DNA from: Sulfuriroseicoccus oceanibius
Lineage (GTDB): Bacteria > Verrucomicrobiota > Verrucomicrobiia > Verrucomicrobiales > SLCJ01
Assembly: GCF_010681825.2 (NCBI RefSeq)
Contig: NZ_CP066776.1
Coordinates: 372,001-436,000, forward strand
Direction: 5' to 3'
DNA length: 64,000 nt
Part shown: positions 1,679 to 22,215 of the stretch, one piece after another
Layout of the letters: each line of letters opens with the position of its first letter
Position numbering within the stretch: the first letter of the stretch is position 1
Position numbers and translations under genes: made by a program
The notes under the pieces: generated by a model
Seen by the model: the letters and a program-made list of their open reading frames with translations, nothing else
Databases searched by the model: none
What the model was told of the DNA's origin: nothing

Positions 1679-4222
1679 GTGGCTGATCCGGTGAAACTCG
1701 AACCTCTGAAGGGCGCGTCCAACGACGACGTACTCAACGCATTCCTCAACTGGCTGGTGGAAACCGGCGTCGATCCCTACGACCACCAGGAAGAGGCCAT
1801 CCTCGAGCTGTTCGACGACAAAAACGTCATCCTCAACACTCCCACTGGATCCGGCAAATCGCTGGTCGCGCTTGCCGTTCATTACCGCGGACTGTGCCTG
1901 GGGCGCCGCTCGTTCTACACCGTCCCGATCAAAGCCCTCGCGAACGAGAAGTTCCTCTCATTGTGCCGCACCTTCGGCCCTGAAAATGTCGGCATGATCA
2001 CCGGCGACGCCACCGTCAACCGCGACGCTCCGATCATCTGCTGCACCGCGGAGATCCTCGCCAACATCGCCCTGCGCGAAGGCGAAAATGCCCAGGTCGA
2101 CGACGTGATCATCGACGAATTCCACTATTACTCCGACCACTCCCGCGGAGTCGCATGGCAGATCCCGCTGCTGGCCTTGCCTCAATCGCGCTTTCTTTTG
2201 ATGTCCGCCACGCTCGGCGAGACCAAGTTCTTCGAAGATGAACTGACCACCCTCACCGGAGCCGAGACCGTCTTGGTCAAATCCGACCAGCGCCCAGTGC
2301 CGCTCGAGTTCATCTACAGCGAAACCCCACTGGCAGAAATGGTCGAAAGCCTGGTGCAAAACGACAAAGCACCGGTCTATCTCGTCCATTTCGCCCAGCG
2401 AGCATGCGCCGAAACCGCACAAAGCCTGACCTCGGTCAACTTTTGCTCGAAGGAAGAAAAGCGCGAGATCGCCGAAGCACTGCACGAGGCGAATTTCCGC
2501 AGCCCGTATGGCAAAGAGGTGAGCAAACTGCTGCGCCACGGCATTGGCATCCACCACGCCGGGTTGCTGCCAAAATACCGCGTGCTGGTGGAAAAGCTCA
2601 CCCAGCGTGGGTTGCTCAAAGTCATCTGCGGTACCGACACCCTGGGCGTCGGGGTGAACGTGCCCATCCGCACAGTCGTCTTCACCCAGCTTTGTAAGTT
2701 CGACGGGCAGGGCACGAAGATCCTCACGGTGCGCGATTTCAAACAAGTCGCCGGCCGCGCCGGACGCCGCGGGTTCGACAACATAGGCTACGTCGTCGCC
2801 CAGGCACCGGAACACGTGATCGAGAACAAAAAGCTCGAAGCCAAAGCCGCCGCCAGCACGAAAAAGCGCAAGCTCATCAAGAAGAAGCCACCGGAGAAGG
2901 GCTACGTGGCATGGGACGAGTCCACGTTCCGCAAACTCATCAGCTCGCCGTCGGAGAAGCTGGTCTCACGCTTCAAGGTCAGCCACAGCATGCTGCTCAA
3001 TGTGATGGCACGGAAGGACAAGGACGGCTGCGCCGAACTGAAACGGGTGATCGCCGCGAGCCACGAGACCGATCAAGCCAAGCGCAAGCACCGACGCCAG
3101 GCATTTGCCATGTTCCGCGGGCTAGTGCGGGGTGGGGTCCTCACCATCATTCCGGAGGAGGAACGCACATCGGATGTGAAAGTGCGCCTCCACGTCGACC
3201 TGCCTGATGATTTCTCGATGAACCAGGCACTCGGGCTTTACCTGCTCGACGTGATCCCACAGCTCGACCGCGAATCCCCAACCTACGTGCTGCATTTGTT
3301 GTCGCTGGTCGAAGCGATTCTCGAAAACCCGATGGCGGTGCTGGTCGCCCAGCAAAACAAAGAAAAGACCCGCCTCATCAACGACCTCAAGGAAGAAGGC
3401 GTCGGCTATGACGAGCGGATGGAACTGCTCGAACAAGTCGAATGGCCGAAACCCGACAAGGACTTCATTTTCGACTCGTTCAACCGCTTCATTGAAACCC
3501 AGCCGTGGATCGAAGCCGAAAGCATCCGCCCGAAATCGATCGTGCGCGAAATGTTCGAGGAGTACATGAGCTTTGAGGACTACGTCAAAGAGTACGGCCT
3601 CGAACGCTCGGAAGCCGTGCTCCTGCGCCACCTCTCGGATGTCTACAAAGTGCTCGAGCAAACCGTGCCCCCCGGGTTGAAAACGGACGAGGTTCTCGAA
3701 GCCCAGGAATACCTCGGCGACCTGCTGCGCGGCGTGGACTCCAGCCTCCTCGACGAGTGGGAGCGCATGCACCACCCGGAACAAGCTCTGGAAGAAAAAG
3801 CCGAGGCCAAACCTGAAAAGGAAGTCCCGATCAGCCGCAGCAAAAAGGCATTCACCCGTGCCGTGCGCCACGCCATCTTCACCGTGGTCAAAGAACTCTC
3901 ACACGACCGCGTGACCTCGGCTCTCACATTGATCGAGCCCGACGACGGAGACGGCGAAAAGTGGTCGGTGCCACGCTTGGATGCCATCCTCGACGACTAC
4001 TACGACGGTCACGAGTTCATCCGCCTCGACCCGGAAGCGCGCAATGCCAAGCATGCCCACATTTCCGAACTGCCAAACGCACGCCGCTGGCGCGTCGACC
4101 AGGTATTGATCGACTCCGACGAACACAACGACTGGGTGCTGGTGGTCGAAGTCGACCTCGACGCCTCGGACGCCAAAGGCGAACCGGTTCTGACACTCAA
4201 ATCACTCGGACCGATCGCCTGA
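1679..4222 (+). CDS. Ski2-like DEAD/DEAH-box helicase (DUF3516 type)
   Basis: A superfamily 2 ATP-dependent nucleic-acid helicase of about 847 residues. Walker A (TPTGSGKS, near residue 54), motif II in the form DEFH (near 145), motif III SAT (near 176) and motif [12 protein letters not shown] (near 358) are all present. The long C-terminal part matches my memory of the DUF3516 helicases of actinobacteria and some PVC bacteria. The open frame runs back into the 322-bp array to base 1391, but that part only translates repeat sequence. I therefore place the start at GTG 1679, with GTG 1691 as an alternative. RNA processing or turnover is a likely role but is not shown by the sequence. Its stop codon abuts an inverted repeat at 4223-4263. 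Confidence 0.88.
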
Positions 4223-4263
4223 TACTGATTGAACGGTTACGCCAAGGTGACCGTTCATTTGGA
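4223..4263. repeat. 41-bp inverted repeat filling the gap between two convergent stop codons
   Basis: The whole interval between the helicase stop (TGA 4220-4222) and the rpe stop (4264-4266 on the minus strand) is one hairpin-forming sequence. Arms TGAACGGT and ACCGTTCA (8 bp, extendable by T-G, A-T and C-G pairs) surround a short loop. There is no T-run, so it is not a classical intrinsic terminator, but it could end or protect both transcripts. Read on the minus strand it contains TGAACGGTCACCTTG, the 15-base core also found at 38062 and in related form at 52758 and 62731. Confidence 0.75.
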
Positions 4264-4944
4264 TCAAGCCTGGCAGGCTGCGGCGTTCTCGCGGATTTCG
4301 TCGATCGCCGCGCCCATCTCCGGAGCGCAGAAGGTCGACGAGCCGGCGACCAGCACGTTGGCGCCCGCCTTGGCAGCGATGGCTCCGGTACGCGCGTTGA
4401 TGCCACCATCGACTTCGATGTGGAAGTCTAATTCACGGGCCGCACGCCACGCCGCGGCCTGCTCGACCTTCGGCATCGTTTCCTCCATGAACGACTGCCC
4501 ACCAAAGCCCGGCACCACGGTCATGACCAGCAGGAGGTCGATCAGCTCGAGGTACGGCTCGACTTCGCTGATCGGAGTGGCCGGGTTCAGTGCCAATCCA
4601 GCCAACACACCCACGTCGCGGATGCGCTTGAGCGTGTCCGCCACGTCGTGATCCGCCTCGACATGCACGGTCACCAAATCCGCACCGGACGCAATGAAGC
4701 GCGGCAAATAGTGATCCGGACGCGAGATCATCAAATGCACGTCGAGAAAGACATCGGTCGCTTTGTCCACGGTCTCGACCATCGCCGGACCAAAGGAGAT
4801 GTTGTCGACAAAATGTCCATCCATCACGTCGAGGTGCATCCAATCGGCTCCGCAACGCACGGCGCGCTGGGTTTCCTCGGTGACTTTTCCAAAATCCGCC
4901 GCGAGCAGCGACGGGGCGATGATAATTTGATCGGAGCGGTTCAT
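4264..4944 (-). CDS. rpe: Ribulose-phosphate 3-epimerase
   Basis: Cytoplasmic enzyme interconverting D-ribulose 5-phosphate and D-xylulose 5-phosphate in the pentose phosphate pathway. The 226-residue length is normal for this TIM-barrel family. Visible family motifs are IAPSLLAADF (9-18), HLDVMDGHFV (37-46, with metal and acid residues H37 and D39), H70 in DVHLM, MTVVPGFGGQ (141-150) and EVDGGI (177-182, with catalytic D179). The start ATG at 4944 is the natural family start. It is transcribed towards the helicase and divergently from tadA across a 93-bp promoter interval. Confidence 0.97.
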   Translation of the reverse strand: MNRSDQIIIAPSLLAADFGKVTEETQRAVRCGADWMHLDVMDGHFVDNISFGPAMVETVDKATDVFLDVHLMISRPDHYLPRFIASGADLVTVHVEADHDVADTLKRIRDVGVLAGLALNPATPISEVEPYLELIDLLLVMTVVPGFGGQSFMEETMPKVEQAAAWRAARELDFHIEVDGGINARTGAIAAKAGANVLVAGSSTFCAPEMGAAIDEIRENAAACQA

Positions 4945-5037
4945 GATGGTCGTGTCTGCTTCCGTTCATTAGCACGTAGCCCGAACTTGGCGAACCGAAA
5001 TCAGGGGTTATCGTAGGCCCCGACTGATTTTCCCATC

Positions 5038-5598
5038 ATGAGCCAAGACGAACCGCCAATCATCGACCTCCAAAGCGACGACTACTTCATGGGCGAAGCC
5101 ATCCGCGAAGCCCTGAAAGCCTACCGTCGTGGCGAAGTGCCGGTCGGTGCGGTGCTCGTTCACGAAGGGCGCATCATCGGCCGCGCGTTCAACCAGGTCG
5201 AAACCTTGAAGGACGCCACCGCCCACGCGGAAATGCTCGTCCTCACCCAAGCCCAGGAAGCCATCGGGGACTGGCGCTTGGAAGACTGCACGCTCTACGT
5301 CACCAAAGAACCATGCCCGATGTGCGCCGGCGCGATCGTTCATTGCCGCCCATCCCGCGTGGTCTACGGCATCAGCGACCCGAAAGGCGGCGCCGCCGGT
5401 GGATGGATCAACCTCTTGCAAACAGAGACTCTCAACCACCAATGCGAGATCACCCGAGGCGTGCGCGAGGAGGAATCCCTCTCCATCATCCAACAATTCT
5501 TCCGCGAAGCCCGCGCCAAAGCCAAAGAGCGCGCCCGCGAACGCAAAGCGCGTGAAGCTGCAGATGAACCAGAGGACGTCGACCTCTGGTCCGAATAA
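5038..5598 (+). CDS. tadA: tRNA-specific adenosine deaminase TadA
   Basis: Zinc-dependent deaminase that converts A34 of tRNA-Arg(ACG) to inosine. The 186-residue protein has the cytidine/deoxycytidylate deaminase signature: HAE at 63-65 (zinc ligand H63, proton-shuttle E65) and PCPMC at 92-96 (zinc ligands C93 and C96). It then shows RVVYGISDPKGGAAGG, typical of TadA rather than of free-nucleotide deaminases. The tail from about residue 155 is a charged Arg/Lys/Glu-rich helix. The ATG at 5038 lies directly in the divergent interval with rpe. Confidence 0.95.
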   Translation: MSQDEPPIIDLQSDDYFMGEAIREALKAYRRGEVPVGAVLVHEGRIIGRAFNQVETLKDATAHAEMLVLTQAQEAIGDWRLEDCTLYVTKEPCPMCAGAIVHCRPSRVVYGISDPKGGAAGGWINLLQTETLNHQCEITRGVREEESLSIIQQFFREARAKAKERARERKAREAADEPEDVDLWSE

Positions 5599-5617
5599 CC
5601 CTAAGCGGACGAAGCAC

Positions 5618-6127
5618 TCACTCCGCGTCCAGGCCGCCGATTTCATTTTCACCGTCCTCCGGCCTCGGCACCAACCCTTGGTCGGCGAGCTTCTCCAGTA
5701 GCTCAGTCACGTCCTCCGCGCCGTCCCACACCGACTGCACAACAAACAACGGCGCTTTCTGGCGCAACGCCACCGCAATCGCATCACTAGGACGCGCGTC
5801 GAGCTCGACCACTTTGCGCTCCTGTACTTCGTTCTCCTCGGACAAAATCAACCGGGCGTAGAACACATCGTTCTTGAAGTCGTTCACCACCACACGCTCG
5901 ACTTTTCCGCCAAACGCCAGCAACAAGGCACCGATCAAATCATGGGTCTGAGGACGAATCGCCGGCACGCCACCAAGCGCCCCCGCAATCGCCGCGCCAA
6001 CCACAGGATCGACGTGGATCACGAAAACTTTCTCGTCATCCCCTAAAAAAACCGCACAGCCCCCGCTCGTCGGAACCACCGCTTTTACTTCTACCGGCAC
6101 CACTGCCTTGTCGCCTGAACTGGTCAT
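5618..6127 (-). CDS. Bifunctional nuclease family protein (DUF151/BFN)
   Basis: A 169-residue protein of the BFN family. Visible family features are the strand segment GGCAVFLGDDEKVFVIHVDP near residue 20, the RPQTHDLIGALLLAFGGKVERVVV segment, and the DARPSDAIAVALRQKAPLFV block (DARPSDAIALA is the family hallmark). Related proteins have been reported with DNase/RNase activity or as stress-related accessory proteins; which applies here is unknown. The C-terminal ~25 residues are acidic. It lies 9 bp downstream of the gamma carbonic anhydrase gene, so the two are probably cotranscribed. Confidence 0.88.
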   Translation of the reverse strand: MTSSGDKAVVPVEVKAVVPTSGGCAVFLGDDEKVFVIHVDPVVGAAIAGALGGVPAIRPQTHDLIGALLLAFGGKVERVVVNDFKNDVFYARLILSEENEVQERKVVELDARPSDAIAVALRQKAPLFVVQSVWDGAEDVTELLEKLADQGLVPRPEDGENEIGGLDAE

Positions 6128-6136
6128 AACCTGCTG

Positions 6137-6646
6137 CTAGTTTACCTTGTAGTCCTTTTGGTACTCGACGTAGTTGAGCGCCCCTTGCTTGAGCGCTTCC
6201 TGTTCTTCCACGCTGAGTTGGCGGATCACCTTGGCCGGAGCCCCGAGCACCAGTGACCCCGGAGGGATCTTTGTGTTCATCGTAACCAATGCCCCCGCGC
6301 CGACAATCGAACGCGCACCGACCACCGCGCCGTCCATCACAATCGAACCCATACCTATAAGACACTCGTCTTCAACGACACACGCATGAAGCATCGCTTT
6401 GTGACCAACTGTCACGTACTTGCCGATCACAGTCCCTTGGTTCTTCTCCAAATGGATCACACAACCATCCTGCACATTGGATCCCTCGCCCACTTCAATG
6501 CGGTTGATATCTCCTCGCAAAACCGCGTTATACCAAATGCTCGCATCTTTCCCCACCTTCACCGCGCCGATGATGTCCGCGCTTGGGGCAACAAATGCCG
6601 ACTCGTGAATTTCGGGATCGCGCCCCGGTAATGAATGAATTGCCAT
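6137..6646 (-). CDS. Gamma-class carbonic anhydrase family protein
   Basis: A left-handed beta-helix protein of 169 residues related to Cam and YrdA/CaiE. The three zinc-ligand histidines of the class are present: H65 in CVIHLEK, H82 in VTVGHKA and H87 in MLHAC. The conserved R44 and D46 (VLRGD) and Q59 (NVQD) are also present. The hexapeptide-repeat pattern (IGMGSIVMDGAVVG) runs through the middle. The protein may interconvert CO2 and bicarbonate, although many family members have no demonstrated activity. It starts at ATG 6646 and is divergent from the HU gene. Confidence 0.92.
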   Translation of the reverse strand: MAIHSLPGRDPEIHESAFVAPSADIIGAVKVGKDASIWYNAVLRGDINRIEVGEGSNVQDGCVIHLEKNQGTVIGKYVTVGHKAMLHACVVEDECLIGMGSIVMDGAVVGARSIVGAGALVTMNTKIPPGSLVLGAPAKVIRQLSVEEQEALKQGALNYVEYQKDYKVN

Positions 6647-6751
6647 CGTCTGACTGTGCCCACTCAGCCCTTTCAGAACAAGAAATTATCCGGCTTTTGA
6701 CACGCAATTTCCCCTTTACAGTCAAGGCCCGAGCGGCATAATCGGAGGCCT

Positions 6752-7027
6752 ATGAACAAATCTGAACTCGTTGAAGCAGTCCAAAGCGCACTTGGTGAAG
6801 ACACTTCGAAGCGCGCCGCTGAAGATGCCGTTAAGGCTGTCCTCGACTCGATCGCTACCGGCGTCAAGAAAGACGGTGTGGTCCAGTTGATCGGCTTCGG
6901 AACCTTCAAGGTCTCCGAGCGTGCAGCTCGCGAAGGACGCAACCCTAAGACCGGTGAGAAAATGCAGATCGCCGCGTCGAAGTCGGTTCGCTTCTCCCCA
7001 TCGTCGAACCTCAAGGCAAGCCTCTAA
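6752..7027 (+). CDS. HU-family DNA-binding protein
   Basis: A small basic nucleoid protein of 91 residues that bends and compacts DNA as a dimer. It shows the family pattern MNKSELVEAVQ at the start, the hinge IGFGTFKVSERAAREGRNPKTGEK and the end KSVRFSPSSNLKASL. A GGAGG ribosome-binding site sits at 6744-6748, close to the ATG. The gene is single and ends in a strong intrinsic terminator at 7081-7118. HU and IHF subunits cannot be separated safely by eye, but the Arg-rich arm fits HU. Confidence 0.95.
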   Translation: MNKSELVEAVQSALGEDTSKRAAEDAVKAVLDSIATGVKKDGVVQLIGFGTFKVSERAAREGRNPKTGEKMQIAASKSVRFSPSSNLKASL

Positions 7028-12149: not shown

Positions 12150-13340
12150 TTAGTTGAAGCTCACTTTGATCCCCTTGCGGCGCCAACCGTCGCTGATGTC
12201 TTCCTCCATTTCGTCGAAGCTGCGGCCATCAAGCAGCACGGCGAGCGCTTCCTCGCCCTTCTTTCCTTGGCGCAGCGCCTTGAGGAATTCCTTCAGACGC
12301 GCGGCATCCCCGTCGCCGTCCAAATGGATGAAATACGTAGTCAGCAAACAGGCAAACCCGTAGTTGAAGTTCGCATTGCCTCCAGTGAACTGACTGTAAG
12401 GCATCAGCATGAACTGCTTCAGATCAGGAGCGTTGATCTCTTCCCCCAACCTGCGCCCCGCCTTACCATCCGACCCGAATTCCGTGATGTACTCTGCCAC
12501 CTTCTTAATGTTGTTGGTGAGGCGAAAGCGCCCATTGCGGTAAGGCGTAGCGGTGGTGTACTCGGCGATTCCCTCGGAGAACCATCCACGGGCCCCGCTT
12601 TCGTAGTACTCGAATGGAGTCAGCTGGTGGGTCAGTTCGTGGATAAGTGTTCCACTGCTCTTGTCCCGGTCACGAGTGTACGAGCTGCCAAATTTCTTCA
12701 CTCCAATGCTCTCCAGAGGGACCATCACCGTGTTCTTTGCGCCCATATAGACACCCGCGCTGGACGGTGGCCCGCCGGCCTTGATGTAGCTCTCTTTGGT
12801 CTCGAACAACAAAATGTCGAACTTGCCGCCATTGGCCCGGGTCGCTCCGGTCATCGCCAAAGGCATGGACTCGCAGTACACACAGGTCGCCTCGAACATT
12901 TCGGCAAAACTCGACACCACCGACTTCTTCAACCCCACGTCCGAGATGTAGCGGTAGCGCGGGCTCTCATAGACAAACCGGCGGCCGTCTTTGTCCTCTT
13001 CGATAATTTCAATATCCGCGTCCCCCTCGACCTCGGCTTCGCTCGGCCATGGCACGTTCCAATTCAGCTTCGCGCCTTCGGGCACCCCGCCACCGGACGG
13101 AGCATCATTCTTTGCCGGTGCCTCCCAGCTCTTGGCAAACTCCTGATCCGCCTCTGAAAGCTTCGCAAAAGGCACATTGGCCTGGCGGCCGTTTTGCAAC
13201 TTCAGCACCACCCCCTCACCGGTCACCTCCAAAAGCTCTGCCTCAAGTTTCCGCCCTTGGACGTCAGTCCACGTCCTGGCTTCCGCCCAACCAATAGTTA
13301 TGAGCGCGAGCGCGCCAATCACTGCCTTACCTGTGTTCAT
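12150..13340 (-). CDS. Secreted SHD1-domain protein with a gluzincin-like HExxH metallopeptidase motif
   Basis: About 396 residues from ATG 13340; 23 further upstream residues are open but lack signal character. Residues 1-21 form a signal peptide ending AEA. Residues 22-72 (RTWTDVQGRKLEAELLEV ... VLKLQNGRQANVPFAKLSEADQEF) are an SLA1-homology (SHD1) domain, common in Planctomycetes and Verrucomicrobia. The C-terminal part has HELTH (234-238) and, 18 residues on, SEGIAEY with E256, the layout of zinc gluzincins. A secreted peptidase is plausible but no substrate is evident. Two Cys (C153, C156) could form a disulfide. The family resembles DUF1570-type proteins. Confidence 0.72.
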   Translation of the reverse strand: MNTGKAVIGALALITIGWAEARTWTDVQGRKLEAELLEVTGEGVVLKLQNGRQANVPFAKLSEADQEFAKSWEAPAKNDAPSGGGVPEGAKLNWNVPWPSEAEVEGDADIEIIEEDKDGRRFVYESPRYRYISDVGLKKSVVSSFAEMFEATCVYCESMPLAMTGATRANGGKFDILLFETKESYIKAGGPPSSAGVYMGAKNTVMVPLESIGVKKFGSSYTRDRDKSSGTLIHELTHQLTPFEYYESGARGWFSEGIAEYTTATPYRNGRFRLTNNIKKVAEYITEFGSDGKAGRRLGEEINAPDLKQFMLMPYSQFTGGNANFNYGFACLLTTYFIHLDGDGDAARLKEFLKALRQGKKGEEALAVLLDGRSFDEMEEDISDGWRRKGIKVSFN

Positions 13341-13484
13341 AGCGTTTTGTTGTTGTGGTACAACGGACGAGCCGTGCGAAAAACTAGGGAAGTTTGCCAT
13401 CGAGGTCAATCACCGCAAGTCCAGCGTCGCGGACAGCACATTTCCGCCTCATATTGAACCAGTTTCGCCAAAATCAGGGCAAAT

Positions 13485-15287
13485 CTACGCCCTGACCTCG
13501 CGCTCGATCTGCTTCGCCAACCGACTGGCGAGATGATGCTCTTTGAGCCAACCCAATGCGTTGGCATTCCCCTCCGACGACCGGATCGCGAGATGATAGC
13601 GGGGCTCGCCGTTCACCTCCGTGTTCGAATCAGGCTCCACCGACTGCAATGCCGCTGCGGAAATCACCTTCTGGCGCCGAATCCCCAGCAACTGCCCAAT
13701 CTTCGTCAGCGTGCCGGCTCTTGGATCCACAACCAATGCCGATCGTGCCGAGATCATCCCAATTCCCACGATCCCGACCAACGACGCACCGGCGCAGAAC
13801 AAATAGCCAAACGCACCGGCATCATCATTCGCAATCCCGGCTCCGACCACCATCATCACCACCGCGAATGCCACCATCCAAAACCCAAATTTCCGCAACT
13901 CCTTGCCCGTGCGCATGTACGTCACCGTGCCATCCATAGACGCCACCCGGCGCACCCCGAGCCGCTCCAAATCCTCATCAGCCAACGCGGCACCGCTTTC
14001 CGCTGCGGAGTCTCCCGCCACACCATCCGAAACTGCCGCCTCAACCGGATGCGCCGCATCACCGAACACCGGCACATCAAAGGATGCCTTGAACTTCTCC
14101 AACGCCGTCTTCGGCTTCCCTTGCAACCGCACCCGCCAGTGGGTGTCGGTGTTCGCCTTGAACTTAATCATCGCCCCACCCTCGATCGTCGTATCCTCGT
14201 ACCCGGTTGGAGCCACCAGCCTCACCGGCAATTCGGTTCCCCGCACTCCGCGCGTCGGGTCCAGACCGCCCTCAAAATGCGAATACGCCACCTGCGTCGA
14301 CGTGCTCGATTGATTGCCTCGCTGTGATGTCACCACGCGCTCGACCACCAGACCCAGCTCCAAGTCATCCTCCCGATACTGTAACTTGGGCGAACTGCCC
14401 ACAATTGTTCCGACAACCTGCCCGCCCTTCTCAAACGGCATCAACTCAGGATCGAAACGAAACTCCAGCTGCCCCAACATCCGCCCACGACGCCACAACC
14501 TGAATACCCCAACCAACAAACCGATTCCAATCAAAGGAAAGAGCAAGACCATCCACGCCATATTTGGCTTTGATCCAAGCTCATCCAGCATGGCGATGAA
14601 TACCGTCCACGAGATCCCATTCCAAAACGCGGCAAATCCTAGCAACACCGCGAACTCCCAGCGCTCGTTCGCCTTCACCACGCCGGCATTCCAGTCGTCG
14701 CGCAACAGCCATGGCTGGTCCGGGTTTTGCGCCAACTTCGCCTTGCGCTTCTTTGCCCGCGCCGCACCGATCAGCCCTGACGTCCCCAGCCCGCCACCGA
14801 TCAACGCAAACACCCCGCCAAACATGAAATAGAACATCAACGCACGCGGACGCAGTTCTCGTTTCAAAAGCGCGTCCCCTGGGTTCTCCGGATCCACATA
14901 ACACGGGACAGTCTCTCCGGCGCGGAGCGCGCCATCGAGCTCACGATAGGTGCGTTGCTGCCAGTCGCCGAAGTTGTCGCCACCAGTGGTCAATCCCACC
15001 CGGTCGTTGGTGTACTCGCGACCATCCCATCGGTACGAATATTCGGCCACCACCTCGTAGCTCACCGAGTCGTCACCATGATGTGTTTCAAGCTCCACCC
15101 GCTGCAACGTGGCCTGGGTCTCAGGCCAATCCGCCGCCGCCAATCCAATCCACAAGGACTTCACCCCAAGCCCCATTACGAAGAGCCCCGCGAGCAAAAA
15201 CGGCAAGCCGAACAAAAACAGGCAACCAAAGCCAGATTTGTTACTATTTCTGGCAGACGAAGGTTCGGTGCTGGTTCTCTTGATCAT
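13485..15287 (-). CDS. DUF3592-type multi-pass membrane protein
   Basis: A 600-residue inner-membrane protein. The N-terminal part has a hydrophobic segment (LFLFGLPFLLAGLFVMGLGV), then a DUF3592-like extracytoplasmic module (WPETQATLQRVELETHHGDDSVSYEVVAEYSYRWDGREYTND ... VPCYVDPENPGDALL), then a second segment (ALMFYFMFGGVFALIGGGLG). Two more hydrophobic pairs follow near residues 215-265 and 470-515. The C-terminal ~80 residues (RSALVVDPRAGTLTKIGQLLGIRRQKVISAAALQSV) resemble a PH-like cytoplasmic tail. Its ATG overlaps the stop of the upstream phosphoesterase fusion by 4 bp, so the two products are translationally coupled. Function unknown. Confidence 0.75.
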   Translation of the reverse strand: MIKRTSTEPSSARNSNKSGFGCLFLFGLPFLLAGLFVMGLGVKSLWIGLAAADWPETQATLQRVELETHHGDDSVSYEVVAEYSYRWDGREYTNDRVGLTTGGDNFGDWQQRTYRELDGALRAGETVPCYVDPENPGDALLKRELRPRALMFYFMFGGVFALIGGGLGTSGLIGAARAKKRKAKLAQNPDQPWLLRDDWNAGVVKANERWEFAVLLGFAAFWNGISWTVFIAMLDELGSKPNMAWMVLLFPLIGIGLLVGVFRLWRRGRMLGQLEFRFDPELMPFEKGGQVVGTIVGSSPKLQYREDDLELGLVVERVVTSQRGNQSSTSTQVAYSHFEGGLDPTRGVRGTELPVRLVAPTGYEDTTIEGGAMIKFKANTDTHWRVRLQGKPKTALEKFKASFDVPVFGDAAHPVEAAVSDGVAGDSAAESGAALADEDLERLGVRRVASMDGTVTYMRTGKELRKFGFWMVAFAVVMMVVGAGIANDDAGAFGYLFCAGASLVGIVGIGMISARSALVVDPRAGTLTKIGQLLGIRRQKVISAAALQSVEPDSNTEVNGEPRYHLAIRSSEGNANALGWLKEHHLASRLAKQIEREVRA

Positions 15288-16909
15288 GGACTCTCGATTT
15301 CTACCTCACGCCCGCTCACCGGGATCTTGTGCTTTGCGAGCGCAAGTTGGCGGGACTCGTCGTAGAATTCGATCGTAAAGTTATGCAATCGGCGCATTTT
15401 CGGGGCGCCGCCATCCTGGCAGTTCCAAACCCGCACCCGGTCAATAGGGGTCATCTGTCCAAGATCGACTTCCCACCACGGGCCGGGCTGCTTCGGCTCG
15501 GTCGATGTGGTCGACCCCTCATCGAAATATCCATTGGTATTGCCATCCACCGCATGGCTGGCGTCGCCGCCCGCATGGGTCGAACTCTGGCTAGCCTGGC
15601 GCTGGAAGGCAACATTAGTACCATTGGAAATCACTTCCACCTCGGCCAGCGACAACGTCCCCGAGCGCGGCAACGAAATGCGGACGTATCGGGCGGTGGT
15701 CAGTTCACCCACACCCGCTGCATCCATCACAGCCACTCCAGATTCGGACTCCGAATCGCCGGACTTCGCCTGATGCAGGCTGATTCCCACCCCAAGCGCG
15801 GCGAGTGCGCCTAACGCCCCTATAGCAATCTTAGATTTCCCGCCTTTGCGGCTGCGCTCACGGGTCTCCTCACGGCTCGGTTGCCGTTTCACCGGAGGCT
15901 TCGGCACCACCACCACCTGTGGCGGCAGATCAACCGCGACGCGGCCCGTGGAACTCGTCAGCGCGGGCTTTTTCACTGTTTTTGGGGCTACAACAGTCGC
16001 CACGCCGCCACCGGCATCGATCGATTCCCCATAAGATTCGACCGAATCGCCTGACTCGTCTTCGTTCTCGTCATCCAACCGCGTCGCCGCAATGGAAACC
16101 GCCGCAGTTACCCCGCGCACCACCTTGCGCGGCTGTGATTCGTCAAAGCACGCCACCTCTTCCGGCTGGCTCACCTGGCGGTCGAGATAACGCAAAAAGT
16201 ACGGTTTGGCATCGAGCCCCACCGCACGATAAGCCGCACGACAGGCCTCAGGATCAAACTCCACAAAGCGATGGCTGATCGAGTGGTCCGTCGTGTCGTA
16301 AATGCAATAACTTGCGACCACCTCCTCACCCCGCGGATCCCCCACCGATCCTGGGTTGACGATATACCGGTAGTCCGCATTGCGAACAAAGGTCCCCGGC
16401 TCGTGCTGCGTGATATCCCCTTCCGGGGACAACGCGTAAATCCCAGGGGCGTGCGTATGCCCGACAAAGATCAACCCGTGATCACAGGCATCAAAACACG
16501 CCTTCGCATCCTCTTTGCTGTTGAGATAATGAAAGCGCCCCGGCTCGTCCATGTGGGCGTGGACCAGGTGCGCATCCAGCCCGTCCAAATGGACGTCCAA
16601 TGGCAACGACGACAGATACTCCTTTTGCTCGTCGGTCAGCTCGTCGATCGTCCATTCGATCACGCCCCGCGCCGTCGGGTTGAAAACCGACGCATTAAAC
16701 AAGCCGCACGCCACCGCATCGTGGTTGCCCATCACCACAGCCTCGGAGCGGCGCCGCACATCATCCACGATCTCACGTGGATTCGGCCCGTAACCTACCA
16801 AATCCCCCAAACAAAGAAAGCGCGTGGCTCCGGCCTCCATTGCATTCTCCACCACAGCGTACCAGGCGGGTAAATTGGCGTGAATGTCAGAGACTATGGC
16901 GTAACGCAT
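15284..16909 (-). CDS. Metallophosphoesterase-TM-discoidin (F5/8C-like) fusion protein
   Basis: A 541-residue protein with an unusual architecture. Residues 1-245 form a calcineurin-like phosphoesterase of the YfcE/MJ0936 type with all metal motifs: DIH (8-10), GDLVGYGPNP (35-44), GNHD (61-64), VHAH (116-119) and GHTH (150-153). Residues 270-358 are a low-complexity, Pro/Lys-rich linker. Residues ~360-376 (IAIGALGALAALGVGIS) form one membrane helix. Residues ~404-541 (RYVRISLPRSGTLSLAEVEV ... SSTHAGGDASHAVDGNTNGYF ... WWEVDLG) are a galactose-binding discoidin-like domain. There is no signal peptide, so the catalytic part should be cytoplasmic and the lectin-like part outside. It lies 39 bp after the cobalamin adenosyltransferase gene and overlaps the DUF3592 gene. 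Confidence 0.85.
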   Translation of the reverse strand: MRYAIVSDIHANLPAWYAVVENAMEAGATRFLCLGDLVGYGPNPREIVDDVRRRSEAVVMGNHDAVACGLFNASVFNPTARGVIEWTIDELTDEQKEYLSSLPLDVHLDGLDAHLVHAHMDEPGRFHYLNSKEDAKACFDACDHGLIFVGHTHAPGIYALSPEGDITQHEPGTFVRNADYRYIVNPGSVGDPRGEEVVASYCIYDTTDHSISHRFVEFDPEACRAAYRAVGLDAKPYFLRYLDRQVSQPEEVACFDESQPRKVVRGVTAAVSIAATRLDDENEDESGDSVESYGESIDAGGGVATVVAPKTVKKPALTSSTGRVAVDLPPQVVVVPKPPVKRQPSREETRERSRKGGKSKIAIGALGALAALGVGISLHQAKSGDSESESGVAVMDAAGVGELTTARYVRISLPRSGTLSLAEVEVISNGTNVAFQRQASQSSTHAGGDASHAVDGNTNGYFDEGSTTSTEPKQPGPWWEVDLGQMTPIDRVRVWNCQDGGAPKMRRLHNFTIEFYDESRQLALAKHKIPVSGREVEIESP

Positions 16910-16948: not shown

Positions 16949-17503
16949 TTATTCGGTGACTTCAGCCCATCGGGCAAACAACCAAAGAACGTCTGACAAG
17001 CGGTTGAGGAAACGCACAACTTCATGATTAAAGTCGGACGCTGCTTCCGCCTCGGCCAAATCGATCACATCACGCTCCGCCCGGCGGCAGACAGTACGGG
17101 CGTGATCCAAGTGGGCACCGGCGAGCGATCCCTTTTCACCCGGCATCACCCATCCTTTGAAGGTCAGCTCTTTCTCTTTCTCGATCATGTCGACCAGGGA
17201 ATCCAGGTCGCCAATCATCTCGTTATCAACGAGCTTATGCCCCGCTTTCTTGAACTTTTCCAGATCCTTCGGATCGGTCGCGAGTTCCCCCATCACCGTC
17301 ACCAGCATGCGCTGGATCGCGTGAATGTGCTCGGCAAGCTCGATCAAATCCTCCTGCTGGGCATGAATGCGTGCCGGCCCGAGCGCCCCATTGAGCTCAT
17401 CCACCGCGCCATACGCCGCCACTCGGATGTCGGTCTTCGGGATGCGCCGGCCAAACATCAAATCAGTGAACCCATCGTCGCCGCGCTTGGTAGCAATAGA
17501 CAT
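16949..17503 (-). CDS. ATP:cob(I)alamin adenosyltransferase, PduO type
   Basis: Adenosylates corrinoids to make coenzyme B12. The 184-residue protein shows the family N-terminus KRGDDGFTDLMFGRRIPKTD (ATP loop), then VDELNGALG, and in the middle GEKGSLAGAHLDHARTVCRRAERDVI with the conserved Arg-rich helix. The end VVRFLNRLSDVLWLFARWAE is characteristic. It lies downstream of the frr terminator, so it has its own promoter or depends on readthrough. The phosphoesterase fusion gene starts 39 bp behind it. Confidence 0.93.
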   Translation of the reverse strand: MSIATKRGDDGFTDLMFGRRIPKTDIRVAAYGAVDELNGALGPARIHAQQEDLIELAEHIHAIQRMLVTVMGELATDPKDLEKFKKAGHKLVDNEMIGDLDSLVDMIEKEKELTFKGWVMPGEKGSLAGAHLDHARTVCRRAERDVIDLAEAEAASDFNHEVVRFLNRLSDVLWLFARWAEVTE

Positions 17504-20055: not shown

Positions 20056-22215
20056 CTACGCCTGCGGCTCCACGGCATAGCGCAGGCCGTCGACTTCGCG
20101 GTAGTGGATGCCGTCCCAGCGCACGGGCACACAATTGAAAAACCATTTCCGTTGGCCATCGTCGCCCTGCCACCATCCGAAAGGAACTCGCACGAGGACT
20201 TTGTTCCAGCCTTGCTTCAGCGCGACTTGCACCGGAGGACGGAAAAAGTACCCCTCCTCGGTCAGCGGAGCTTCTTCAATGCGGCCTTTGCCCCAGCCAC
20301 CCCATGGCAGACTTTCAAAGCTCCAGCGTGGAGGAGCGATGCGCTCGTCGTTGATCCACAGGTCGCCACCAGAGAAATCCCACTCCCCCTGCCGCGGTGC
20401 ACGCGCACTGCGGTATCCCCCCGAGTGCCCCCACATCCCGCCGATCCCAAACATCACCCCCACCTGCTGGGGCTCGGGACTGAAAATGTAGCTCAGAGCA
20501 TAACAGGTGCCCCCAGCATCCCCTACGCGGTGGCTCATGGTCGCCGGCCAGTAGTCCGGGTTCGCCTGCTTGCGGTGCAAATTGAAAACCGAATAGAAGT
20601 GGCGCAGGTGGATCGCACTGCCCCACGCGGGCTCATCCTCCCAGCGCAGCGTACGCCCGCCCTGCTGGTAACTCTCTTTGATCACGCGCTCCGGCTCGAA
20701 CGACGTGTCGTTTCGTCCCCTGTGGTCAAATGGTCCGATCAGTTTCCACGGAATGTGACTTTGTTTGACATAGGCGAAGGGCACCTCCTGGAAGTACAAA
20801 TCACGATGCGCCGTCAGTCGGCCCTCGAACTCCGCAAACGCCGCATGGGCTGCGCTTCCCGGCTGAGGCAGCTTGGCAAACAAGTCCGCCCGTTCCTCTG
20901 CGGCACCGCGCCACAGGCGCTCGGCAAAGGTGAGCATGCACGGATAAAACGGGTACTGGATCAACAAACGGTCCTCCCCACTGAGCGCACCGTCCGTCCA
21001 GACACAAGTGATCGCGCCTAGCGCGCTGCGGTTGCTCTCTCGCACGTCGCATGGCTGTTGAAAAAAGTATTGGTACACGCCTGACTGCGCATCGATCCAA
21101 TCCATGTAAAAGCCGGTCGTGTCGATATGCCGCATCGAGGGGTCCACTTTCTGGCCGGTGTGGTCTCCCCAATGCATCTTCACCACCTGGCGGTCCGGCA
21201 GGTGGCCCGGATCCCACACCACCACGTCCTTCCCCCTCCGGCGCGCGTGCGCCACCATCCGCGGCATGAACTCCTTCATGCGGATGCGCACCTCGTCCGA
21301 TCCCAAGTGCAGGTACCGAGAGGGAAAAAGCGAAGCCACTTCATCGATCACCTCTCGCAGCACCGCCACCCCGGCCTCGCTCTGCATGTCGAACCCCATC
21401 GCCCGCTTGAACGCCTCACTATGCCCGGGCATGTCGATCTCCGGGATCACCGTAACGCCGCGCCGGGCACAATACGCGATCAATTCCCGCATCTCCTCCT
21501 GGGTGTAATACCTGCCGGGCTGACGCGTCTTCCAATGGAACTCGGCAGCAGTCAACTGCGGGTACTTTTTAATCTCCAGCCGCCACGCCGCGTCCTCGGT
21601 GAGGTGCAAATGCAGCGTGTTGATCTTGTAACCGGCCAACCGATCCACCTGACGCTTGATAAACCCGGGCGAGAGATAGTTCCTCCCGACGTCCAACATC
21701 ACTCCGCGGATCCCGAAGGCCGGCCAATCACGTACCGCGCATCCGGCAACCATCCACCTCCCGTCGGACTGGTAAATCAACTGCCGCAAGGTCTGCACCC
21801 CATTGAACCACCCACGGAAATGCGAGGCCACAATCACGACACCGTCGTGGTCGAACTCAAGCGCGTATGCCTCCCGCTCGAGATGCGCCCCTTCCACCCT
21901 ACCGGCGGCAAAGCGCACGACAAACCCTGTCTCACCGGTGACGTCCGCCTTCGTCAGCCCAAACTCGGTCACCACCCGCTCCACCGCGGTTCCCAGCCAG
22001 TCACGCGCCCGCTCCGGAATCCCGGCCCCAAAGGCCACCGCTACTCCGGCAACCTCACGGTCCGCATGTTGCCAATCCACCTCAACCGGGTACGGGATCA
22101 ACGCCCGCTTGGCCGTCCCAGCCGGGGGCGTCGGCAACGACCACCCCGAGTCCGAGGCCTGAGCAATCACCACACCTGCCCAGAGAAACAGAAAAACCAA
22201 CACTCGGCACGTCAT
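20056..22215 (-). CDS. Secreted beta-N-acetylhexosaminidase, GH20 (copy 1)
   Basis: Family 20 glycoside hydrolase of 719 residues. A signal peptide (MTCRVLVFLFLWAGVVIAQA) is followed by the GH20b N-terminal domain (to ~155) and the catalytic barrel. The barrel has GVMLDVGRNY, NTLHLHLTEDAAWRLEIKKYP, VIPEIDMPGHSEAF and the catalytic pair D307-E308 in LHLGSDEV. The family uses substrate-assisted catalysis on terminal GlcNAc or GalNAc. A C-terminal module with WINDERIAPP and GWNKVLVRVPFGWW looks like a galactose-binding fold. It is the most divergent of the three GH20 copies. It follows the SGNH gene after 21 bp, so both probably belong to one operon led by the copy at 23713. Confidence 0.93.
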   Translation of the reverse strand: MTCRVLVFLFLWAGVVIAQASDSGWSLPTPPAGTAKRALIPYPVEVDWQHADREVAGVAVAFGAGIPERARDWLGTAVERVVTEFGLTKADVTGETGFVVRFAAGRVEGAHLEREAYALEFDHDGVVIVASHFRGWFNGVQTLRQLIYQSDGRWMVAGCAVRDWPAFGIRGVMLDVGRNYLSPGFIKRQVDRLAGYKINTLHLHLTEDAAWRLEIKKYPQLTAAEFHWKTRQPGRYYTQEEMRELIAYCARRGVTVIPEIDMPGHSEAFKRAMGFDMQSEAGVAVLREVIDEVASLFPSRYLHLGSDEVRIRMKEFMPRMVAHARRRGKDVVVWDPGHLPDRQVVKMHWGDHTGQKVDPSMRHIDTTGFYMDWIDAQSGVYQYFFQQPCDVRESNRSALGAITCVWTDGALSGEDRLLIQYPFYPCMLTFAERLWRGAAEERADLFAKLPQPGSAAHAAFAEFEGRLTAHRDLYFQEVPFAYVKQSHIPWKLIGPFDHRGRNDTSFEPERVIKESYQQGGRTLRWEDEPAWGSAIHLRHFYSVFNLHRKQANPDYWPATMSHRVGDAGGTCYALSYIFSPEPQQVGVMFGIGGMWGHSGGYRSARAPRQGEWDFSGGDLWINDERIAPPRWSFESLPWGGWGKGRIEEAPLTEEGYFFRPPVQVALKQGWNKVLVRVPFGWWQGDDGQRKWFFNCVPVRWDGIHYREVDGLRYAVEPQA

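Follow-up and report, generated by a model that had tools for sequence, protein, structure and literature searches.

A 64,000-nt stretch of the Sulfuriroseicoccus oceanibius genome (contig NZ_CP066776.1, positions 372,001 to 436,000; hereafter the window) carries on its minus strand a gene (15284..16909, ATG start, 541 amino acids (aa)) whose product joins a di-metal phosphoesterase through one predicted membrane helix to a lectin-like F5/8C domain. An earlier note, made from the letters of the stretch, had read this fusion as a one-protein signaling device, and the open reading frame (ORF), Pfam and hydropathy analyses agree on the fusion itself; the gene call is further backed by relatives with the same domain order. 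The domain order recurs in other genomes, the metal site is complete, the enzyme falls into a clade apart from stand-alone copies, and the far-side part is swapped within that clade. We consider the chances slightly better than even that the protein acts as a one-component receptor for glycans and that its output is a cytosolic phosphohydrolase.

The phosphoesterase domain (aa 1–250, 16160..16909, minus strand) was delimited by a Metallophos_2 match at aa 1–208 (E 9e-18, above the Pfam gathering score), by its best solved relative by sequence, 3rqz (E 1.9e-34), by an AlphaFold2 model and by its metal ligands. The di-metal pattern D-x-H, GD, GNHD, H, GHxH is found in full and all eight ligand positions are occupied (D8, H10, D36, N62, H63, H117, H151 and H153), so that the earlier statement that every metal motif is present holds. 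The model of aa 1–252, built from 38 sequences with a mean predicted local distance difference test (pLDDT) score of 96.6, has the SapH/3rqz-type fold with the C-terminal part included: it matches 3rqz with Z 32.1 (227 residues, 36% identity) and SapH/Spr1479 (3qfn) with Z 25.5 (225 residues, 24% identity; both by VIA-align), and 2gju and 1nnw each with Z 26. YfcE, Vps29, ApaH, PP2A, PP5 and calcineurin gave Z values of about 15–17, and a family that is missing from this second-look structural list is not thereby excluded. Since the scores to 3rqz and SapH are so much higher than those to the PPP phosphatases, the modeled enzyme appears to be of the SapH kind, with the PPP phosphatases as distant relatives. 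SapH is known here from its PDB titles as an asymmetric Ap4A hydrolase and phosphodiesterase, and we take the group to be the SapH/MJ0912-type metallophosphoesterases. The signature of PPP phosphatases, GDxxDRG with GNHE, of which ApaH varies the first motif (excerpts of PMC535813), is absent from the window protein, which has GDLVGYG and GNHD instead. No PP2C catalytic domain was matched by Pfam in the window protein, whose enzyme part is Metallophos_2.

Behind the enzyme lies a low-complexity linker (aa 251–360, 15830..16159, minus strand) with a lysine/arginine-rich end, followed by the single predicted membrane helix (aa 361–379, 15773..15829, minus strand; Kyte–Doolittle mean 1.91). In a plain hydropathy scan (19-residue window, mean of at least 1.6) this is the sole hydrophobic segment of the protein. 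The same scan detects no hydrophobic segment at the N-terminus, where the catalytic domain begins at residue 1, in agreement with the lack of an export signal noted earlier. The 20 residues before the helix contain nine lysines or arginines, the 20 residues after it one. Across 115 receptor-type proteins, uncorrected for relatedness, this charge bias predicts a cytosolic N-terminus in 82 compared with 21 for the reverse, with 12 ties, and thereby favors this orientation over one with both domains on the same side. Judged from hydropathy and charge, the enzyme is probably cytosolic and the lectin-like domain on the far side of the membrane, with the single helix between them. What had been called outside is to be narrowed, as in a diderm this most likely means the periplasm, and the far side is here probably periplasmic.

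The far-side domain (aa 405–541, 15287..15697, minus strand), placed by Pfam, by its match to 2j1r and by alignment, shows F5_F8_type_C_2 and F5_F8_type_C matches at aa 438–519 (E 7e-11 and 2e-9, above gathering scores), and 2j1r, an F-type lectin, is matched over aa 430–539 (E 1.8e-19), with 3le0 also matched (E 2.4e-16). The strand at aa 406–427 corresponds to the final, C-terminal strand of the 2j1r chain, indicating that the domain is circularly permuted relative to that lectin. F-type lectins carry a fucose motif, HX24RXDX4(R/K), and a cation motif, h2DGx (excerpts of PMC5712786). The window copy has the cation motif, as AVDGN, and reads S, C, D, R at the fucose positions, with H changed to S and R to C. 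Whether this copy binds sugar is therefore uncertain, particularly where specificity for fucose is concerned. In 20 aligned relatives, which are long open frames from the same order scored for the residues and not for their exact spacing, R is invariant, H and the final basic residue are each present in 19, and D is present in 13; the complete set occurs in 12. The three nearest relatives all lack the D; L181 and L184 have H and R, L183 has R only. Another F5/8C protein is encoded in the same genome (L003 889–3234): it looks secreted, combines PA14, F5/8C and TSP3 repeats, and reads H and RTD at its fucose motif.

Whether the domain order occurs in other genomes, a check that the earlier note had proposed, is answered by these nearest relatives. 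L181, L183 and L184 share the helix and F5/8C order and align end to end with the window protein, with 44–49% identity in the enzyme and 41–47% in the far-side domain; they represent three genomes of one genus, which belongs to a different family from that of the window. All of 57 genomes of the order contain a match to the phosphoesterase, mostly as stand-alone copies of about 240–300 residues. Five further proteins in this set match at 43–48% identity over about 245–262 residues within longer frames: L033, L034 and L036 read phosphoesterase-helix-LamG, L035 stops at the helix, and L037 adds a Ser/Thr kinase. A GH95-like fucosidase, recognized by sequence reading without a domain scan, adjoins L036.

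Searching 386 genomes of the order with a profile of six sequences gave 60 matches of at least 235 bits, spread over 44 genomes; the next match has 219 bits, and 55 of the 60 lie in frames of at least 365 residues. Of the five short frames, those in G008 and G340:C194 reach contig ends and the one in G306:C47 is frame-split; this last gene (L201), from a draft genome, is broken by a frame change that may be real or an assembly error. A sample of the phylum gave matches of E 1e-64 or better in 79 of 387 genomes and, of the 90 matches listed, 85 lie in frames of at least 370 residues. At the same threshold, a sample of the class gave matches in seven of 335 genomes, two of them stand-alone copies, so that receptor-type genes are rare in the class outside this order. 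A single-protein query found no match among genome contigs, whereas an alignment query did; as the best 80 of its 585 matches were kept, other phyla are under-sampled. On contigs with a name, the receptor type is found in Verrucomicrobiales, Roseibacillus, Kiritimatiellae and Lentisphaerae.

A tree built from 170 phosphoesterase domains splits the 45 stand-alone copies from the 125 others with support of 99 in the Shimodaira–Hasegawa-like approximate likelihood ratio test (SH-aLRT). On the receptor side, 115 proteins have a helix, six have none and four are cut by contig ends. The window protein lies on this side, has its helix after the enzyme and groups with L181, L183 and L184 (support 90); the tree is a quick build with SH-aLRT support only, and its members are related and not independent samples. 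Relatives that carry the two parts as neighboring genes, which would have spoken against a fused device, are not evident: beside five unfused and uncut receptor-side loci (L180, L053, L196, L252 and L079, with L250 counted as a copy of L053) we saw no adjoining gene for a helix plus ectodomain. Close to its start, the frame downstream of L252 contains a hydrophobic stretch, and the frame downstream of L079 begins like a lipoprotein; because of long branches, the receptor-side place of L196, L252 and L079 is unsure. Since the full order recurs in three genomes and the enzyme-helix-tail layout in more than 100 proteins, this layout goes beyond chance. Receptor-type genes also occur as tandem pairs (L054 5427–8145, G904:C101, G846:C1 and G752:C26), and the second copy of L054 has 57 residues only after its helix.

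The part behind the helix varies within the family. Among 43 receptor proteins scanned with Pfam, 22 carry, behind the enzyme, a carbohydrate-binding-type domain that passes the cut-off. This is Laminin_G_3 in 16, F5/8C in five and PA14 alone in one; one of the 16 Laminin_G_3 proteins also carries PA14 and another a carbohydrate esterase SASA domain. The remaining 21 of the 43 have no carbohydrate-binding-type Pfam domain at that cut-off. A tail of about 180 residues without a Pfam match, from Kiritimatiellae and Lentisphaerae, is common among these 21. Its model (10 sequences, pLDDT 85.1), on which Foldseek was also run, matches the CBM16 module 2zew (Z 13.2, 137 residues), a hyaluronan-binding module (Z 13.2) and CBM4-2 (Z about 12), and the modeled tail appears to be a CBM16/CBM4-like jelly roll. 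In 98 of 103 complete receptors at least 100 residues follow the helix, and up to 1016. By these domain assignments, the far-side part is interchangeable across the receptor family.

Conservation of the metal site is high, with all eight ligands kept in 105 of the 113 receptor-type proteins in which every column is present. The other eight (L191, L192, L193, L083, L195 at 4063–6960, L197, L198 and L200) have lost several ligands, with changes at H10, N62, H63 and H153; L199, the ninth sequence of this kind, breaks off ahead of its helix. The ligand-loss sequences form one clade in the tree, and all nine genomes that hold one contain another receptor-type copy (in G306, the frame-split gene). 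The helix is retained in these predicted pseudo-enzymes, and the three scanned with Pfam (L192, L195 and L198) also have a LamG match; such dead copies would fit a signaling family better than a metabolic enzyme.

The genes around the two forms differ. Neighbors were called by longest open frame at loci hand-picked as non-redundant; the receptor set has 87 neighbors, taken from 151 after removal of those outside Verrucomicrobiales and some others and addition of three genes by hand, and the control set has 62 of 133. Sulfatases account for nine of the 87 neighbors of receptor-type genes, compared with at most one of the 62 near stand-alone copies (Fisher p 0.046, taking one of 62), and PSD1/PSCyt2 proteins for three of the 87. 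GT9 heptosyltransferase-family proteins account for 14 of the 62 neighbors of stand-alone copies, compared with at most two of the 87, and ABC transporters (membrane and ATPase domains) for five of the 62. Thus, the genomic surroundings of receptor-type genes differ from those of stand-alone genes. The sulfatase signal counts for little, because receptor-bearing genomes are rich in sulfatases (18 in that of the window; elsewhere a first look gave up to 275 candidates, and for most genomes the best 56 were scored) and because the nine probably include a hand-added gene, L035 6414–7868, a sulfatase by sequence reading, without which the contrast becomes smaller. Almost every genome of the order has a stand-alone phosphoesterase, and genes for GT9 glycosyltransferases or ABC transporters are frequent next to it (L074–L117 and others), a hint at a role in lipopolysaccharide. 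The copy in the genome of the window (G000:C1:1032789-1033478; L279 2290–3018) lies upstream of an EF-Tu-like gene, again by sequence reading.

In the mechanism that we infer, in which the topology, the glycan ligand, the substrate and the signaling are all conditional, the window protein would cross the inner membrane once and act as a receptor whose output is enzymatic. Its C-terminal lectin-like domain on the far side, most likely in the periplasm, would bind a glycan or glycoconjugate. Binding would alter the conformation or oligomeric state by way of the single helix and the flexible linker, the altered state would make the cytosolic di-metal phosphoesterase more or less active, and the enzyme would hydrolyze a phosphorylated signal. 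Several observations weigh against this: the fucose motif of the window copy is broken, 21 of the 115 receptor-type proteins have the reverse charge bias, fewer than 100 residues follow the helix in five of the 103 complete receptors, and the sulfatase signal for a glycan-degradation neighborhood is weak. The main rival to sensing is a tether, in which the far-side domain would hold a constitutive phosphoesterase at an envelope site (peptidoglycan or surface polysaccharide) without any transmembrane signal. Carbohydrate-binding modules often only target enzymes, the linkers look unstructured in their sequence, and since in some members (the five of 103) the chain ends at or soon after the helix, anchoring alone can suffice. 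However, varied and often multi-domain tails of up to 1016 residues would be needless for a mere anchor, and pseudo-enzyme members retain the tail, so that we regard the tether as unlikely. The separation of the receptor and stand-alone clades, the scarcity of GT9 genes among the varied neighbors of receptor-type genes and the poor match of variable tails to a fixed biosynthetic step make it quite improbable that receptor-type proteins serve as membrane-bound counterparts of the stand-alone enzyme and act on lipid- or sugar-linked phosphate in envelope biosynthesis, an idea that the GT9 and ABC transporter neighbors of the stand-alone copies would otherwise support.

For the glycan receptor, two kinds of substrate come into question. 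A dinucleoside-polyphosphate-type nucleotide is slightly favored, tentatively, because of the relation to SapH, and a phosphoprotein produced by a Hanks kinase comes next, held a little more loosely still. In a variant built on the latter, the enzyme would be a protein phosphatase of Hanks kinases or their targets, with kinase and phosphatase receptors as opposing arms. The genome of the window encodes four Hanks-type kinases (L275, L276, L277 and L278), each with one predicted helix between the kinase and a long tail, an enzyme-helix-tail layout like that of the phosphoesterase; the tails contain TPR, HEAT, PEGA plus FGE-sulfatase, or nothing recognized by Pfam. Moreover, L037 (4563–8666, 1367 aa) holds a phosphoesterase, a Ser/Thr kinase, a helix and two LamG matches in one chain, and the fold is common to PP5, PP2A and calcineurin (Z about 15). 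We take the L037 chain as a pointer to a phosphoprotein substrate and no more: when further kinase fusions were sought in the ORFs of 193 sources, L037 was the only one found (1 of 115), which also counts among the points against the favored mechanism. As the nearest characterized fold is that of the Ap4A hydrolase/phosphodiesterase SapH and the PPP motifs are replaced, this variant is somewhat unlikely.

Among known systems, the closest in layout have anti-sigma factors, kinases or PP2C phosphatases as outputs. The RsgI anti-sigma factors of Clostridium thermocellum swap their C-terminal sensors among CBM3, CBM42, PA14 and GH10 (excerpts of PMC12203970), and share with the layout predicted here from hydropathy, charge and Pfam an N-terminal cytosolic domain, one helix and a swappable C-terminal carbohydrate sensor. 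Unlike the window protein with its N-terminal Metallophos_2, they have, in the same excerpts, an anti-sigma cytosolic domain and signal by proteolysis, and their source is Gram-positive. The receptor-like Hanks/PASTA kinases resemble the window protein in combining a cytosolic phospho-signaling enzyme, one helix and an extracytoplasmic sensor (excerpts of PMC6213207). The four kinases of the genome itself share this layout, but their tails are not lectins. The phosphatase PstP likewise has a receptor-like membrane layout; Hanks kinases and PstP have a kinase or PP2C fold, in contrast to the metallophosphoesterase of the window protein. SapH/Spr1479 (3qfm, 3qfn) and 3rqz share the fold over nearly the entire enzyme domain, metal ligands included, but consist of that domain alone (246–270 residues), without helix or lectin part. 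With F-type lectins (2j1r) the far-side domain shares the sequence match and the cation motif, and differs by its permuted order and broken fucose motif. Planctomycete-type cytochrome (PSCyt) proteins of freshwater Verrucomicrobia have Laminin_G_3, PA14 and F5/8C attached, and the receptors therefore appear to draw on similar domain types, although PSCyt proteins are not phosphoesterases and F5/8C is placed under protein-protein interaction by the authors (excerpts of PMC5615132). By analogy, the receptor family would work like RsgI and the receptor kinases while being a member of neither.

Verrucomicrobiota include major polysaccharide degraders and, to our knowledge, carbohydrate sensing in the phylum is poorly understood. 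We did not find a SapH-type phosphoesterase as a receptor output in the open-access papers searched, though one may already have been published. We tentatively propose receptor phosphohydrolases as a class of one-component transmembrane glycan sensors in Verrucomicrobiales and in Kiritimatiellae and Lentisphaerae, with hydrolysis of a cytosolic phospho-signal as output, which would include the phosphoesterase-kinase chain and dead receptors beside active ones. A family with swappable sensors and an enzyme output would provide a list of candidate glycan receptors for each genome.

The receptor gene comes after fmt, pyrH, frr and a gene for cobalamin adenosyltransferase (16949..17503, minus strand), all read in the same direction; the last is a housekeeping gene by its Pfam match with no evident link to the receptor. 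The stop codon of the receptor gene shares the sequence ATGA with the start codon of a gene for a 600-aa DUF3592 membrane protein (13485..15287, minus strand; Pfam), which bears out the translational coupling described in the earlier note, and the two genes are likely co-transcribed. The further suggestion that the DUF3592 protein is a partner did not hold up: a search of the ORFs of the 193 sources, many of them loci with short flanks, returned the protein itself as the single match, so that a conserved partnership is unsupported and this candidate was rejected. Further downstream in the same direction, a gene at 12150–13409 has an SHD1 domain (Pfam) and the sequence HELTH, which by sequence reading is typical of zinc peptidases. 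The fifth gene upstream of the receptor gene (20056–22215) encodes a GH20-family glycoside hydrolase according to Pfam.

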